36,699 nucleotides of DNA from Chloroflexota bacterium (lineage in GTDB: Bacteria > Chloroflexota > Anaerolineae > Anaerolineales > UBA4823): positions 2,995,493 through 3,032,191 of the forward strand of contig CP070785.1 in NCBI GenBank assembly GCA_020346705.1. The letters run 5' to 3'. The notes under the pieces are model-generated. The model saw nothing but the letters and a program-made list of their open reading frames with translations, was not told where the DNA came from and made no database searches. The stretch's first letter is position 1, and every line of letters begins with the position of its first letter. This document shows positions 5,159 to 28,963 of this stretch, in pieces. Position numbers and translations under genes: made by a program.

Positions 5159-8100
5159 CTAGACTTCTGATGAAACTGGTTGGCGGTTATGGACCAAGTT
5201 TAATGCTACCAGGGCAGCGAGTTGGCGGTGGATTGCAACATCATCTGGTGCTTTGGCTGCTGCTTTACGAAGCATCTTTTCGGCAGCAGGATAATCACGG
5301 CTGGCTTTGAGCAGTAACCCTGCTTGGTAGTACGGCCGGGGATCAGATGGATGGAGACGAATTGCCTTCTGGTAAGTCTCCAGCGCTTGTTCATATTGGC
5401 GACGTTCTGTCAAGGTTTCGCCCAGTGTGAGATAGCTTTCCATGCTGGAGGGTGCGATGCGGATCGCTTCTGATAAATGATGGATAGATTGATCCAATTG
5501 GCCTGATTGTTGTAAGAGGGCACCTAACAAGTTATGCAAATGTGCCTGTTCGTCGAGAGGAAGTTGACCGCTGCTGCGGTGTAGTGCCTGCTGGGCGGAT
5601 TGGATTGCCTCTGGATTCTGTCCTGAAGCTGCTAAAGCTTCAGCCAGCGGCGCCAGGACTAAAGGCTCATCCGGATATTCTTCGGCGATTGATTGGAGCG
5701 CTTTAAGATGGGCCTCTGATCCTTCGAATTGAGAAATCAAACTGGCCCTTTGAAGAAGTAGTGGTAGTGGATCTGAGGAGAGAGGGATAGCTTTATCGAC
5801 GATATTTAACGCCCTTTCCGCCTGACCAGAAGCAGATAAGGCCTGAGCTTGCAAGTGGAGTGCCTCTGGAGAATCGGGATCAACTCGCAATGCGGATTCA
5901 GCAAAAGTCTTTGCTTTCCCTGGATCACTCATTTTCAGTGCAATTCTTGCACTCAAGAGCAATGGTGTTTGCTCATCAGGTGCCATTTTAGCTGCCAATT
6001 GGGCGTTTTTCATCGCCTGAGCGTAATCCCGATTTTCATATTGGGCGTTTGCCAACGCAAGGTATGGTTCAATATGATCCGGTGCGATGCGCAGGGATTT
6101 CCTGAGCACTAATATTGCCTCACCAGCTTCACCATTTGCCAAATGGGCTTGACTCAGATCGAAATAGTGCTGGAGGAATTTTGGTTCCATTTCAATCGCT
6201 CTATTAAAATGGATGATCGCTTCAGCAAAATCATCGTTGAGGCGAGATAATTGACCGAGATAAGATTGCCACCGAGGTTCATTTGACCAAAGGGTGAGAG
6301 CAGTTTTCATTGCAGTTAACGCAACTTGCCAATCCCCTAATCTCTCTGCAATCTTTGCTTGAATCACATAATAGATCGCCTCTGTTGTATTGTGGTCTAA
6401 GGCGGAATGGATGGCATCCATTGCTTGTTCCAAGGCGATCTGGTCTTTTCCAGTAGAGCATAATGCCATAGCATAAGCGGCGTAAATACAATGGTGCAGC
6501 GTTTCAGAATCTGCTTTACTCTGTATCGAGTGGTAGAGTTGGGCAGAGGCAGATGAATCACCTGTGCGAGCTACAGCCAATAATAGGGCAGCATTGTCTG
6601 AAGGTTCGAGGTTGGCGATCTCAATGGAACTGATTGTTTTAGTATCGGGGTGGAAAGCAACTTCCCCCCGAAAACTCCAACGATTGATTGGCGCAGGCTT
6701 TTCTGCCTGAAGATCTTCTGGAAGGCAGGTGATAGATTCCTGTAGTGCATCCTCAAAGATTCGATGAGATCGGGGGGATAAAGCACTCTCTCCAGGGGCG
6801 TGATTGACGATATCTAAATATTCACAAAGGCGCTGGAATTCTGCGCGTTCTACAAATAATCGCGCTCTCTGTAAGTGAACATTTGCATCCTTTGGAGAAA
6901 TTGAAGCTGCACTTTCCAGGAGCTCATATGCCAGGTCCCATCGATACAGCTCAATTGCAGATCGTGCAATTCCCAATAAAGAATTTGGTTGGATGTTATC
7001 GGTTATTTTCTTATGATCTGGATCCTTGATGTGTACAATTGCCGTATCGAGTGATTTCAAAGCTGACTCCCGGTCCCCTTGTCTGATCGCCATCCGCGAT
7101 TGAAGTGCTAATACCCGGGGATGTTGAGAGTCTAGAAGAAATGCATCATTCAAGGCAGCTGCTGCCGCGACTTGTTCTTCTCTCTCTAAAGCAATTTCAG
7201 CGACGATGCAGTAGTAGTCCAAAAGAGAAGGCTTCCCAATAATCTGCTGGAGTTGTGGTTCACCATTGGTACCCGTCGGAGGTGAGGAATCCTGGTTCTC
7301 CAAGATGACGTCTTCAACTATATTTGACCGCGCTAATTCAGCAACCAAACCCTGTGCTGGGAGTGAATATAGACCTGACTTGAGGGTTTCACTGGCGATC
7401 TGAGCATGGTCAAAAGCGCGGATTAAATTCCCTTGATCGCGCAGTACATGTGCAATTTGAAAATGTACATATGGATTTTCAGAATCAAGGATTAATGCAT
7501 GTTCAAGGCAAGCCTGAGCTGCATCTAAACGATCTAATCTTGATAGTAAACCAGCCTTATATGTGTGCAGCAGTGCATTTTCAGAATCCTGGTCAACACC
7601 CTTGTCGATGGTTTTAATCGCCAGTTCGGTCTTACCAGCTTCAGTATATGTATTTGCCAATTCGAGGATCAAAGCAATTGGAGGGTAAGGTTGAAGCTCG
7701 AGAGCACGTTCTAAACAAGCTGCTGCTGATTCGTCATCCCCCAATTCACTCAAACCATCAGCAGCCTGGTAGAGATCTTCTGGTGTTGAATAAGGACTAG
7801 ACAGAGCACTCAAAAAAGCATCTTTGGCATCCTCGCCTTTTCCCATCTTGATATATACCAGGCCCAGTCGGATAATCAAATCCGTACGTTTTGGTGCGAG
7901 TTGGGCTCCTCGGGTTAAGGCAGGAATGGCTTCGGCGATTACGCCTAGCTCGCCAGCTTGATCAGCGAACCAGGATAATACTTCGACGTCATCTGGAGCC
8001 AAGTGGACGGCTGTCCGGGCAGCAAAAAGCGCTTCTTGTGTGAGAGAAATGGCGGAGTAAGCCTCGCAAAGTATTTGTGCAACCTGGGTGTTCTGAATCT

Positions 8101-10669
8101 CCTCCCGATCTGTAACCTGCAAAGCTGCAATCGCAACTTCTGGTTGATCGAGTTGAAGGGCAACGCGACCCATTCCTACTGCCAATTCAGTTCGCCAGAT
8201 ATCTCCTCGACCCAGATCGGTCTCGAGGGCTTGTGAATAAGTAAGTAAAGCGTTCTCTATTTCGCCTGCAGCTTCCTGAGCTTGAGCGAGTAATGCAGTA
8301 GCGAGCTCTTGATCCTCTGAATTATCCTCACCTGAACTGCTTTCCTGGTTTTTAAGTATCTCGAGAGCCTTATGAAGAGAAAAAACCGCTTCATCAGGAT
8401 TTTCTCCGGCCTTGAGCAGTACCCGGGCATACTCAATATACGGTTGAGGATCAGCAGGTTCAGCGGCTACTGCTATCGCTAGCGGGGCAAGGGCAGATTT
8501 TTCATCGCCTACTTCCATAATTGATTTTGCATAACTATATGCTAATCCTGGAAATGATGGGTATGCTTGATATGCTTTTCTAAAGACCTGGTTAGCTTCC
8601 TCTGCATGCCCAAGTTTTTCTAAAACCTGCCCATAAGAAAGAGCAATTTCGCAGAGTTGTTCGCGGCTGTGATTGAACTTATCAATTCCCTTCCCATTCC
8701 CTTTTGCTAAATTTTTCCGTGTTGGGATGAAGTTAGGTTCAGTCACCAGCTGATAAGCACGGGCGAAGGCAGACTGTGCTTGGGAAGGTGAGTTCTCTTT
8801 GATATAGACTTGTCCCAACGCATAAAAAAGAGAAGGATCATCTGGCACTGCATGGGATGCGGTGCGCAAGGTTTCAATCGATTTTTCGAATTGCCCAGCT
8901 CGCTGGTGAGCTTTCGCCAGCGATAACCAAGGAGCAGGTTTGTGAGGGGCAAGCTGTGTTGCCAGGTCGAAGTGTTCTAATGCCTGATCGATATCTCCGA
9001 TAGATGTGAGCGCTTCACCAAGAAGCGCATGGGCTTGACCATTGGAAGGATCTAAATCGATCGCCTTTTGGCAAACGTCCAAAGCCTGTTGGGGTTGATC
9101 TCCATGTATTGAACAGTTTGCCAGGGCAAGCAAATCATCTAGTAGGGGCCAAGAGGGGGAAGATGGTTGTGCAAAACGATGTTCGAGGATTGCCCGGCGC
9201 TCGACAAGAGATGTGGACCAATATCCTGCGCCTTCTAAACTTTGGGCAAGTTGGCGTCGGTATTCAGGATTGGTAGGAGTAATTGCTGTTGCTAACTCAG
9301 CTGCTTCAATTGATTTTTCGTATTCTCCTGCCGAACGACCGGTCTTTGTAACCATTATCAGTGCTTCTGGATCGTCTGGTTGGATTTGCGAAGCCAAAAC
9401 AGCTGCTTGGTAAGCTTCCTTGTATGAAGCCAGGTTTATCAATTGGTGGATTAATTCCGATAGGTATACAAGAGCATCGTGATGTGAACCAAAGAACTGT
9501 TCTAGAGATTCGGGATTAAACTCATAGATTTCGATAAAGGCATTTAATGCCTGGTTTGCAAATAAGCGTGCCTGGCTGATGTCTTCATTATTTAGTGCCT
9601 GGTGGATATTAGTCAACCAGCGGATCGGAGTTTGTGAGCTACCTTCCAATTCAGGCAGGATCGCCAGTGAATCTTCTAGTCGATCTGATTGTAGAAGATC
9701 AATAATTAGGCTGGCAGGTGGTGTTAATTTCGGAGGATTGGCAATACTTGTCCAAAGTGATAAGGATTGTTCAACATTATTTTCGGATAGAAGAGTTTCC
9801 CTCACTAATTCATTAGTGATTTTTGCCTGGATACCATTGATGATATTTAATGATTGGGATTTGATGCTATCCGCCTTCTCTGTCTGACGTGCTAACGTGT
9901 AAATATCTGCAAAATGGAGAAGGTCTGTTAATTGGAAGAGTTCTTCTTCAGGAAATTCGGTTGTACCAAAAATTGGATCGTCTTGTTGATTTAAAAGCCG
10001 TTCATTAGCGAGCTGGAAAGTTAAATCTGGTCGGAATTTGTTCAGAGAATTTAATAATAAGGTTGTCTCGTGGAGAGAGGTTTCCGACAGTAGTCTTTGT
10101 AATTGGTTTGTTAACTCCTGAGTTGGAATTGGCTGGCAAAGAATTGCATGAACAGCCATAGGGATTAAATTCGTCTTCTGACTCCTGTAAATCAATGCGA
10201 TCAGGAAGTCCAATTGATCTGGAATAAATCCTAGGTAGATTGAGAAAGGAGTCTCCCAATTGCTTGGATCAGTTTGTGGTCCTAGTATCTCTTCGATCAG
10301 CAATTGGTAATTATCTTCATAGCGGTTAAATATCCCAACAGAAATTTGAGCTGCGAGCTTCAAGGTCATCCCATCTTGTCGAGGTTTTCCTTTATCAGCC
10401 AAGAAATCATCCAATGCACCCTCGGCCGCTTTGAGTGTTTTTTTGTCAACCGATTTTAGATCGCTGCTATCCAAACAAATTGCCGCCAAGTAATTGGGGG
10501 ACCAATCCCTCGGCTCGGATATTTTTTTCGCCGCGATTTCAAATAACTCCGGATCATTGAGTGATTGCCATATCACTGCATCGTGCTTCAATGCTGGAAT
10601 TACCCAAGACCAGCTTGCTTCTGGAATGGATGATTTCAAGGTAGAAATTAATGAGGGATTTGAATGCAT
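5159..10669 (-). CDS. Giant TPR repeat protein (1836 aa)
   Basis: From about residue 420 to the end the protein is a long run of 34-residue TPR units with the usual pattern (for example PDDPEALI, AIEMEPKFLQHYFDLSQAH, AIRLHPSDPRPYYQAGLLL); the N-terminal 400 residues are helical but less regular. There is no signal peptide and no membrane segment, so I infer a cytoplasmic scaffold or sensor. It ends 6 bp before the TPR/caspase-like peptidase gene and the two are surely cotranscribed, so it may be the partner, activator or substrate-presenting subunit of that protease. The start ATG has only a weak upstream purine stretch. The whole gene is intact, with no frameshift seen. It has no recognisable enzyme domain. 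Confidence 0.85.
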   Translation of the reverse strand: MHSNPSLISTLKSSIPEASWSWVIPALKHDAVIWQSLNDPELFEIAAKKISEPRDWSPNYLAAICLDSSDLKSVDKKTLKAAEGALDDFLADKGKPRQDGMTLKLAAQISVGIFNRYEDNYQLLIEEILGPQTDPSNWETPFSIYLGFIPDQLDFLIALIYRSQKTNLIPMAVHAILCQPIPTQELTNQLQRLLSETSLHETTLLLNSLNKFRPDLTFQLANERLLNQQDDPIFGTTEFPEEELFQLTDLLHFADIYTLARQTEKADSIKSQSLNIINGIQAKITNELVRETLLSENNVEQSLSLWTSIANPPKLTPPASLIIDLLQSDRLEDSLAILPELEGSSQTPIRWLTNIHQALNNEDISQARLFANQALNAFIEIYEFNPESLEQFFGSHHDALVYLSELIHQLINLASYKEAYQAAVLASQIQPDDPEALIMVTKTGRSAGEYEKSIEAAELATAITPTNPEYRRQLAQSLEGAGYWSTSLVERRAILEHRFAQPSSPSWPLLDDLLALANCSIHGDQPQQALDVCQKAIDLDPSNGQAHALLGEALTSIGDIDQALEHFDLATQLAPHKPAPWLSLAKAHQRAGQFEKSIETLRTASHAVPDDPSLFYALGQVYIKENSPSQAQSAFARAYQLVTEPNFIPTRKNLAKGNGKGIDKFNHSREQLCEIALSYGQVLEKLGHAEEANQVFRKAYQAYPSFPGLAYSYAKSIMEVGDEKSALAPLAIAVAAEPADPQPYIEYARVLLKAGENPDEAVFSLHKALEILKNQESSSGEDNSEDQELATALLAQAQEAAGEIENALLTYSQALETDLGRGDIWRTELAVGMGRVALQLDQPEVAIAALQVTDREEIQNTQVAQILCEAYSAISLTQEALFAARTAVHLAPDDVEVLSWFADQAGELGVIAEAIPALTRGAQLAPKRTDLIIRLGLVYIKMGKGEDAKDAFLSALSSPYSTPEDLYQAADGLSELGDDESAAACLERALELQPYPPIALILELANTYTEAGKTELAIKTIDKGVDQDSENALLHTYKAGLLSRLDRLDAAQACLEHALILDSENPYVHFQIAHVLRDQGNLIRAFDHAQIASETLKSGLYSLPAQGLVAELARSNIVEDVILENQDSSPPTGTNGEPQLQQIIGKPSLLDYYCIVAEIALEREEQVAAAAALNDAFLLDSQHPRVLALQSRMAIRQGDRESALKSLDTAIVHIKDPDHKKITDNIQPNSLLGIARSAIELYRWDLAYELLESAASISPKDANVHLQRARLFVERAEFQRLCEYLDIVNHAPGESALSPRSHRIFEDALQESITCLPEDLQAEKPAPINRWSFRGEVAFHPDTKTISSIEIANLEPSDNAALLLAVARTGDSSASAQLYHSIQSKADSETLHHCIYAAYAMALCSTGKDQIALEQAMDAIHSALDHNTTEAIYYVIQAKIAERLGDWQVALTAMKTALTLWSNEPRWQSYLGQLSRLNDDFAEAIIHFNRAIEMEPKFLQHYFDLSQAHLANGEAGEAILVLRKSLRIAPDHIEPYLALANAQYENRDYAQAMKNAQLAAKMAPDEQTPLLLSARIALKMSDPGKAKTFAESALRVDPDSPEALHLQAQALSASGQAERALNIVDKAIPLSSDPLPLLLQRASLISQFEGSEAHLKALQSIAEEYPDEPLVLAPLAEALAASGQNPEAIQSAQQALHRSSGQLPLDEQAHLHNLLGALLQQSGQLDQSIHHLSEAIRIAPSSMESYLTLGETLTERRQYEQALETYQKAIRLHPSDPRPYYQAGLLLKASRDYPAAEKMLRKAAAKAPDDVAIHRQLAALVALNLVHNRQPVSSEV

Positions 10670-12382: not shown

Positions 12383-13561
12383 CTAATTTTGAGAGGAAGT
12401 ACGAGAACGGCGGCGTAAGAATGCAGGGATATCCAGATCGTCTGATGCTATTACTTGAGGAATACCTGCAGGTACAGCTTCGACAGGTTTCGAAACTTCA
12501 ACAGTTTGAGGTGTTGGTTCGTGGACAGGTGGCTGGCTTAGTGGGGAATTTTCTTCAATTTTTAGGGAGATACCAGGCATGATTTCTTCAAGCGTAGGAG
12601 CTCCCAGGCCGGTGATAACCAGAATTACCTGCGCTCTCCCCAACATACGTTCATCATTCGAAATTCCAAAAACAATTTCTGCTTGGTCGCCAACTCGGGA
12701 ATGAAGATCATTCAACACCTCGCTGACTTCATAAAGCGTCAGGTCCTCTCCGCCTGTGAAATTGGCGATTATGCCAGCTGCCTGGTTAATTGAGATTTCC
12801 TCGAGGAGTGGGTGTTCGAGAGCCTGATCAACAGCAAGCCGGGCTTTATTAAGACCTTTGCCATGTCCGATGGACATAAATGCACCACCACCGATTTTCA
12901 TTAGTCTGCGGATGTGAGCGAAGTCTACATTAATCATGCCCGGTTCAGTGATAAGTTCAGTGATGCCCTGGACAGCCTGGCGGAGGACCTCATCTGCGAG
13001 GCGGAACGCTACTTCCAAAGGCAGATCACGAGGCGCGACCATCAACAACCTGTCGTTGGGAATAGCGATCAATGTGTCCGTATGCTGGACAAGTTCAGCC
13101 AGTCCAAGGTTCGAATTACTTTGTCTGCGACCCATCTCGAAGGAGAAGGGTGTGGTCACAATTGCAATGGTGACAGCCCCCATCGATCTGGCAATCCTGG
13201 CTGCAACAGGGATGGAGCCCGTACCAGTGCCTCCGCCCATCCCAGCTGTCAGGAAAACCATGTCTGCTCCCTCTAGGGCCTCCGCGATTTCTCGCTCGCT
13301 TTCTTCTGCAGCCTGGCGGCCGATCTCTGGATTTCCCCCTGCTCCTAGACCACGGGTGACGTCAGGTCCCAGCTGTAATTTCTTATCTGCCAAGCTGGTC
13401 TGCAGTGCCTGATAATCAGTATTTGCGGCTAAGAATTCAATTCCTGATATTCCCAACTCGATCATACGGTTGACGGCATTACAGCCTCCACCCCCCAAAC
13501 CCAAAACTTTTAATACCGGTAAGTTTGTGGGAATTTCATCCATCTCGAAATATTCACTCAT
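12383..13561 (-). CDS. ftsZ: Cell division protein FtsZ
   Basis: 392-residue tubulin-like GTPase that forms the division ring. Visible are GLGGGGCNAVNRM near residue 21, the tubulin signature GGGTGTG at 109-115, the NTD and NDRLL segments of the nucleotide pocket, and INVDFAHIRRLM at the T7 loop. After a variable linker of about 60 residues the protein ends with DLDIPAFLRRR, a typical C-terminal peptide that binds membrane tethers. Length is normal. No ftsA, ftsQ or mur gene is nearby. Instead it lies in an operon with a TIM-barrel-like gene 13 bp upstream and small/envelope/protease genes downstream, so its usual cell-wall cluster context is absent. Confidence 0.97.
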   Translation of the reverse strand: MSEYFEMDEIPTNLPVLKVLGLGGGGCNAVNRMIELGISGIEFLAANTDYQALQTSLADKKLQLGPDVTRGLGAGGNPEIGRQAAEESEREIAEALEGADMVFLTAGMGGGTGTGSIPVAARIARSMGAVTIAIVTTPFSFEMGRRQSNSNLGLAELVQHTDTLIAIPNDRLLMVAPRDLPLEVAFRLADEVLRQAVQGITELITEPGMINVDFAHIRRLMKIGGGAFMSIGHGKGLNKARLAVDQALEHPLLEEISINQAAGIIANFTGGEDLTLYEVSEVLNDLHSRVGDQAEIVFGISNDERMLGRAQVILVITGLGAPTLEEIMPGISLKIEENSPLSQPPVHEPTPQTVEVSKPVEAVPAGIPQVIASDDLDIPAFLRRRSRTSSQN

Positions 13562-27958: not shown

Positions 27959-28003
27959 GCTTCATCATCCTAAAAGATTTTTGACTATTCCAGGAGATTC
28001 TAT

Positions 28004-28963
28004 ATGGACAAGATTAAAGATCTGGGGACTTTCGAAGATTTCAAAAACTCGTTTTCTTACGGCAGCAGGTCGGATATGAATTTCAAGTTTTTAAAGTCTT
28101 TACCAGATGAAGAAGCTGGACTATTCTTCCAGGAATTATTGTGGAAGTTAGGGGATGCCAGTAATGATAATTCTATCGAGCCGCTGATGAATCACATTTA
28201 CGAATGGCAAATTAAAGCTTACTCGGGTAAATCAAATTGGCAATATCCCGAATCACCTTTTACACCTTTACAAAAATCACTGGTTGATACAAAGATTGGG
28301 CTGATGACAACCAGCGGTCATTTTATCGAGGGGGATGATCCGGAACCATTTGGTGTCAAAGATATGGGGGCGAAAGAGGCACAAAATCGGATTTCCGAGT
28401 TTCTAAAATCCGAGCCTATACTTTCGACAATTCCAATGGATACCCCCAGAGAAAAGCTCAGGCTACGGCATGGAGGTTATGACAATAGGGCTGCGCTTGA
28501 GGACTACAATACGGTTCTACCGCTCGATCGGATCCTGGAATTGAAACAGGCTGGATCAATTGGACAGATAGCTGAGAATACCTATTCATTCGTAGGAGCT
28601 TGCGCCCAACGAAGATTAGTCAATCAGGTTGCCCCCCGATGGGCAGATATGCTGAAGGGAGAAGGAATTGAGGCGTTGATCTTGGTCCCGGTCTGACCGG
28701 TTTGTCATTTGTCCGTTGGACATTTAGCCCGCACATTTGAACAGTCTGGAATTCCAACGATTTCATTCGGCATCATGGCCTTCAAAAGTCGCATGATCCC
28801 AATGTCGATCCCCCGCCTTGTGCTCACACCAGAATTATTAGGGAAAACACTTGGAAAACCAAATGATAAAAAATCCCAACTTAGATATCTGGAAGCTGGT
28901 CTAAATCTTTTGGAAAATGCTTCCCAAGGGTATTCTACGGTAATATTCGAGCGGGGTGATTAA
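28004..28963 (+). CDS. Selenoprotein of the glycine/sarcosine/betaine/proline reductase B family (in-frame UGA = Sec)
   Basis: The frame runs 319 codons from the ATG at 28004 to TAA at 28963, interrupted only by TGA at 28694-28696. Read as selenocysteine (U231), the motif is ALILVPVUPVCHLSVGHLAR, the UxxC centre of the GrdB/PrdB family; the sequence on both sides (GIEALILVPV before, FEQSGIPTISFG after) is one continuous family domain. A hairpin with the features of a bacterial SECIS follows directly. Classical members reduce glycine, betaine, sarcosine or D-proline in complexes with pyruvoyl subunits; no such partner gene is near, so the substrate is unknown and a stand-alone thiol/selenol redox role is possible. 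Automatic annotation will split this into two false genes (28004-28696 and 28709-28963). No selA/B/C gene lies in the window. Confidence 0.87.
28697..28729 (+). promoter_or_regulatory. Bacterial SECIS-like hairpin
   Basis: Directly after the UGA, TGTCC (28710-28714) pairs with GGACA (28718-28722) around a GTT loop whose first base is G; GG (28699-28700) can pair with CC (28728-28729) below an internal loop. The UGA-to-loop distance of 18 bases and the G at the start of the loop fit the published bacterial SECIS consensus. Confidence 0.7.

Follow-up and report, generated by a model that had tools for sequence, protein, structure and literature searches.

Does the in-frame TGA at position 28,694 of this 36,699-nt stretch of Chloroflexota DNA (the window) end a gene, or is it read as selenocysteine (Sec), and if so, what kind of protein results? 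The frame from 28,004 to 28,963 contains this TGA as its only in-frame stop, followed by 88 more codons and a TAA. A mechanical list of open reading frames splits it into products of 230 amino acids (28,004–28,696) and 84 amino acids (28,709–28,963), the two broken genes that a reading of the sequence alone (the sequence-only reading) had expected of standard gene calling. The window is free of N gaps. Since 3 of its 19 larger genes end in TGA, this codon serves there as an ordinary stop, with no genome-wide recoding. The features discussed below are collected in Table 1.

Table 1 Features of the selenoprotein locus, in window coordinates
Feature	Position	Strand	Remarks
AGGAG-like ribosome site	~27,992–27,996	+	upstream of the selenoprotein gene
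Whole selenoprotein gene (predicted)	28,004–28,963	+	319 residues; Sec is residue 231; TAA at 28,961–28,963
Subfamily's conserved helical N-terminal region (FKNSFSYGSRSDMNFKFLK...)	28,034–28,250	+	absent from PrdB; no Pfam match
C-terminal domain, part up to the Sec codon	28,448–28,696	+	matches GRDB (PF07355); with the sequence beyond, PrdB (TIGR04483)
In-frame TGA, putatively read as Sec	28,694–28,696	+	either TGA or a Cys codon here in all 64 loci read
U-P-V-C redox motif (UxxC)	28,694–28,705	+	U/C231, P232 and C234 invariant; strand-to-helix junction in the predicted model
Bacterial SECIS hairpin (predicted)	28,710–28,722	+	5-bp stem TGTCC/GGACA; loop GTT at 28,715–28,717; 18 nt after the TGA

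Decoding of the TGA codon

A TGA that is translated is expected to be retained in homologues, with similarity extending beyond it. Among 84,980 species genomes scanned, 13 relatives turned up, and 11 of these extend to the TGA site. All 11 full-length relatives (45–71% identical) have TGA at the same codon, where the motif reads UPVC or UPMC/UPIC, and similarity continues to the end; no close homologue terminates at this position. The frame thus does run on past the TGA (VPV-U-PVCH), as had been proposed. When distant relatives are included, 46 of 64 loci have TGA at this column and all 18 TGA-free homologues have TGC or TGT, with no other codon observed, indicating that Sec and Cys exchange at position 231. 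Such exchange at one site is a standard mark of a selenoprotein family. The region 3' of the TGA is under purifying selection (dN 0.17 and dS 2.9 in comparison with the nearest relative). A PrdB-like gene is found in 100 of 400 sampled Chloroflexota genomes, most with one TGA.

Incorporation of Sec in bacteria is expected to require a SECIS hairpin downstream of the UGA. Published limits for bacterial SECIS elements are a loop of 3–9 nt, a stem of 4–16 bp, a spacing of 16–37 nt, a G in loop positions 1–2 and an MFE of at most −7.5 (PMC13188914). The hairpin in the window, with its 3-nt loop led by G and an MFE of −7.8, lies within these limits. An Rfam search gave no match near the gene, and the energy of the window sequence alone was not significant against shuffled sequences (z −0.21). 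As a lone hairpin of such energy is not unusual, the evidence for the SECIS is comparative. A pair count over 12 sequences was too conserved to reveal covariation, and a larger set of 42 distinct Sec sequences was needed; there, the helix of eight pairs reaches 92.3% pairing, and six of these pairs show changes on both sides. The covariation score of 0.436 (shuffled mean 0.120) was reached in none of 500 shuffles, and the signal was destroyed when the helix was slid along the alignment. In 17 distinct Cys sequences, by comparison, the same columns are 55% paired without covariation, and the helix is absent. Stem sequences vary by group (GTGTCC/GGACAC, CAGTCC/GGACTG, GTGACC/GGTCAC, GCACACC/GGTGTGC), but in nearly all sequences the short apical loop keeps its position; in the window, the unbroken stem comprises just five of the eight aligned pairs. 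The earlier claim of a hairpin with a leading loop G at the expected distance is therefore well supported, and we regard the covarying helix as the strongest single indication that the UGA would be decoded as Sec. These observations, together with the TGA conserved in full-length homologues, provide strong comparative evidence for a hidden UxxC selenoprotein, and we infer that the gene is genuine.

Decoding is also expected to depend on dedicated machinery. The window's own assembly is a 3.27-Mb draft, 73% complete, presented as a single contig whose pieces, in the stretches read, are joined by exactly 100 N, so that the order of genes from one piece to the next may be artificial. It contains tRNA-Sec (73.3 bits, anticodon TCA, i.e. 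UCA) and SelA (536.7 bits, above cut-off), so the machinery is present in part in this incomplete assembly, but neither SelB nor SelD was found above cut-off in it. The SelB-like matches inspected are EF-Tu and IF-2, and the SelD-like matches fall below cut-off. Only part of the machinery sought was thus recovered; each of the two missing components occurs in most relatives, and we attribute their absence here to assembly incompleteness. Among the 15 genomes with a subfamily gene (own included), tRNA-Sec and SelD are each above cut-off in 13 and SelB in 10; every one of these SelD sequences contains one TGA. The assembly of the nearest relative lacks SelD and has SelB only as a cut copy, while well-assembled genomes from the same order as the window have SelD with one TGA.

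More broadly, SelA is present in 331 of the 400 Chloroflexota genomes. Comparison by hand of the two sets of results showed that SelA is missing from 5 of the 100 genomes in which a PrdB-like gene occurs; this gene has Cys in three (G009, G140 and G228) and TGA in two (G188 and G270). G270, listed as 95% complete and with an empty SelA search, has several TGA-containing PrdB-like genes (C17, C23 and C11; L042 and L085), which could reflect either a different route to Sec or an assembly gap.

Structure, gene neighbourhood and possible roles

Superfamily membership was assessed with PF07355 (GRDB), which the protein matches with 47 bits against a gathering threshold of 22, over profile positions 266–345 of 347, i.e. 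the C-terminal part. The predicted model (mean pLDDT 86) consists of an alpha/beta domain plus N-terminal helices, with Sec231 between a strand (224–228) and a helix (232–247) and Cys234 in the first helical turn. Comparison of this model with the PDB returned only common Rossmann-like matches (Z of about 8 or less), none convincing, which leaves analogy with PrdB and GrdB as the basis for interpreting catalysis. In its predicted geometry at Sec231, its UxxC motif and its Sec/Cys exchange, the protein looks like a thiol/selenol redox enzyme.

Comparison of the subfamily loci revealed no neighbour that is conserved throughout. Synteny of five upstream genes is shared only with the closest relative, and a multiheme cytochrome match between the window and locus L020 proved to be a generic domain match. 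Elsewhere in the window, a long minus-strand block, judged by eye, encodes an 1836-residue repeat-rich (TPR-like) protein (5,159–10,669) and an FtsZ/tubulin-like protein (12,383–13,561). At other loci the neighbours lend a mild redox flavour. DsbD and thioredoxin-like genes lie directly upstream of the subfamily gene at L018, and a PrxQ-like gene at L019, where DJ-1 is also among the neighbours. A MerR regulator and a mercuric reductase (MerA, over cut-off) lie close to the gene at L021 (6,423–9,947), and disulfide reductases occur among the neighbours at L021 and L024. Because these genes differ from locus to locus, functional linkage to them is weak.

These redox neighbours, together with the UxxC motif, are consistent with a role in thiol peroxidase or disulfide-type antioxidant defence rather than in reductive cleavage of small molecules, which would leave Sec decoding unaffected. 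The variation between loci argues against such a role, as does the fact that the relatives with known function, PrdB and GrdB, cleave C–N bonds, and we consider it possible but doubtful.

A possible substrate hint comes from loci L024 (7,047–12,195) and L026 (3,487–7,598), where the subfamily gene is directly followed by DUF427, an ABC transporter of the betaine/OsmF type and an FAD disulfide reductase. GrdH is the betaine member of the GrdB/PrdB superfamily, and the transporter (OsmF/ProV-type) could signal a Sec-dependent reductase of betaine-like or other quaternary amines that works without GrdE-type adaptors; this, too, concerns only the role. The transporter genes are limited to these two closely related Chloroflexi genomes, however, and are found neither in the window nor at the other loci, and the GrdH model gives only 51.5 of 775 bits. 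A quaternary-amine substrate is therefore unlikely.

Relationship to proline and glycine reductases

The protein resembles PrdB, the D-proline reductase subunit, in its C-terminal domain with an HGGYD-like motif, in its Sec within UxxCH and in its in-frame TGA; PrdB (TIGR04483) is also its best curated match. If it were a true PrdB, with prdA and prdC at another site or in the part of the genome that the assembly lacks, it would be expected to score and cluster as one. Yet, with 102.5 bits, it falls far short of the equivalog cut-off of 300; genuine PrdB proteins used as controls reached 310 and 401. A tree of 72 sequences has the subfamily on one side of a branch (90/89); PrdB clusters with a set of Cys proteins (99/90), and GrdB stands apart (100/100). 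The subfamily further differs from PrdB in an additional conserved N-terminal region of ~80 residues (SYGSRSDxxFKFLK), and the window protein has UPVC where PrdB has UGTC. PrdB's partners PrdA and PrdC are lacking, and a PrdA/GrdE-family partner (PF09338) was found neither in the window's own 73%-complete genome nor in the 14 other subfamily genomes; a Peptoclostridium record, used as positive control, gave three matches. That this is PrdB proper is thus very unlikely, and the earlier observation that no reductase partner genes lie nearby extends to all 15 genomes.

Likeness to GrdB, GrdF and GrdH (selenoprotein B of glycine, sarcosine and betaine reductase) is similarly confined to the Sec-bearing C-terminal region. 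GrdB, at ~435 amino acids, has a different N-terminal half, the subfamily genomes lack a GrdE-family gene, and the match to TIGR01918 (GrdB/GrdF/GrdH) reaches 47.6 bits, below the cut-off of 65.45. The assignment to the GrdB/PrdB family consequently stands at the level of the superfamily, while curated cut-offs and the tree place the protein outside PrdB and GrdB themselves. Its description as a stand-alone selenoprotein of this superfamily, related to the Sec subunits PrdB and GrdB, appears largely right. Finally, although the window's assembly is a gapped draft, it is hardly credible that the TGA marks a pseudogene (a gene for a Cys or Sec protein with a nonsense mutation) or an error of assembly, given the same-codon TGA in 11 independent assemblies and in more distant relatives, the covarying SECIS, the selection 3' of the TGA and the lack of N gaps.

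Sec proteins with the motif U-G-[LI]-CNQSVGL form a large Chloroflexota group (L043–L045, L047–L048, L050, L052–L055, L057, L060–L065) that is related to the subfamily but separate in the tree, and apparently also without a name.

The reading that we favour, with a probability of roughly 85%, is that of a genuine Sec-decoded, stand-alone relative of PrdB and GrdB, a UxxC reductase that acts without PrdA/GrdE and is re-reduced by a thioredoxin-type donor. The UGA would be decoded under the direction of the downstream hairpin and the tRNA-Sec/SelA/SelB/SelD system. By analogy with PrdB and GrdB, Sec231 would most likely attack an electrophilic substrate, a selenide-sulfide would then form between Sec231 and Cys234, and the thioredoxin-type donor would re-reduce it. 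The protein would function without the pyruvoyl/adaptor subunit (PrdA/GrdE) used by PrdB and GrdB, and its own N-terminal helical region may, speculatively, contribute to that role. Only tentatively do we go further and propose a separate, self-sufficient Sec reductase in which this N-terminal helical domain would replace PrdA/GrdE and the electrophilic substrate would, as the sequence-only reading had suggested, be new for GrdB/PrdB enzymes, distributed across largely uncultured Chloroflexota, Acidimicrobiia and proteobacterial-type lineages.

Relatives in other bacteria and in the ocean

Sec-containing PrdB has been known from ocean metagenomes since 2005, and this kind of selenoprotein is itself not new: 42 such sequences were reported from the Sargasso Sea in 2005 (PMC1088965), and the Global Ocean Sampling data of 2008 contained 235 PrdB sequences with Sec and 110 with Cys (PMC2398784). 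Like the window protein, these are UxxC Sec proteins assigned to PrdB/PF07355; they are abundant and have Cys homologues. They are described only as proline reductase and were compared with the window protein by description; the ocean sets probably include its relatives. A stand-alone subfamily that lacks PrdA and has an N-terminal region of its own appears to be undescribed in the literature searched.

Cys homologues of similar length (~300 amino acids) occur in Haematobacter and Roseomonas, where they are annotated as "glycine/sarcosine/betaine reductase selenoprotein B family protein". As in the subfamily, no reductase partner genes are listed around them. They differ in having CPxCH where the window has UPVCH, in lacking a SECIS and the subfamily's N-terminal region, and in their neighbouring genes. 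In Roseomonas haemaphysalidis (L030, 7,899–10,284), the Cys form lies end to end with selO, encoding a protein adenylyltransferase.

The gene escapes ordinary gene calling and falls under the NCBI naming thresholds for GrdB/PrdB selenoproteins, while its wider relatives are common in the sampled Chloroflexota, most of them with a TGA. The ocean "PrdB" counts have so far been taken as proline reductase. That interpretation is probably wrong if PrdA is missing there too, as it is from all 15 subfamily genomes; in that case, these proteins would represent a common environmental selenoprotein without a known substrate.
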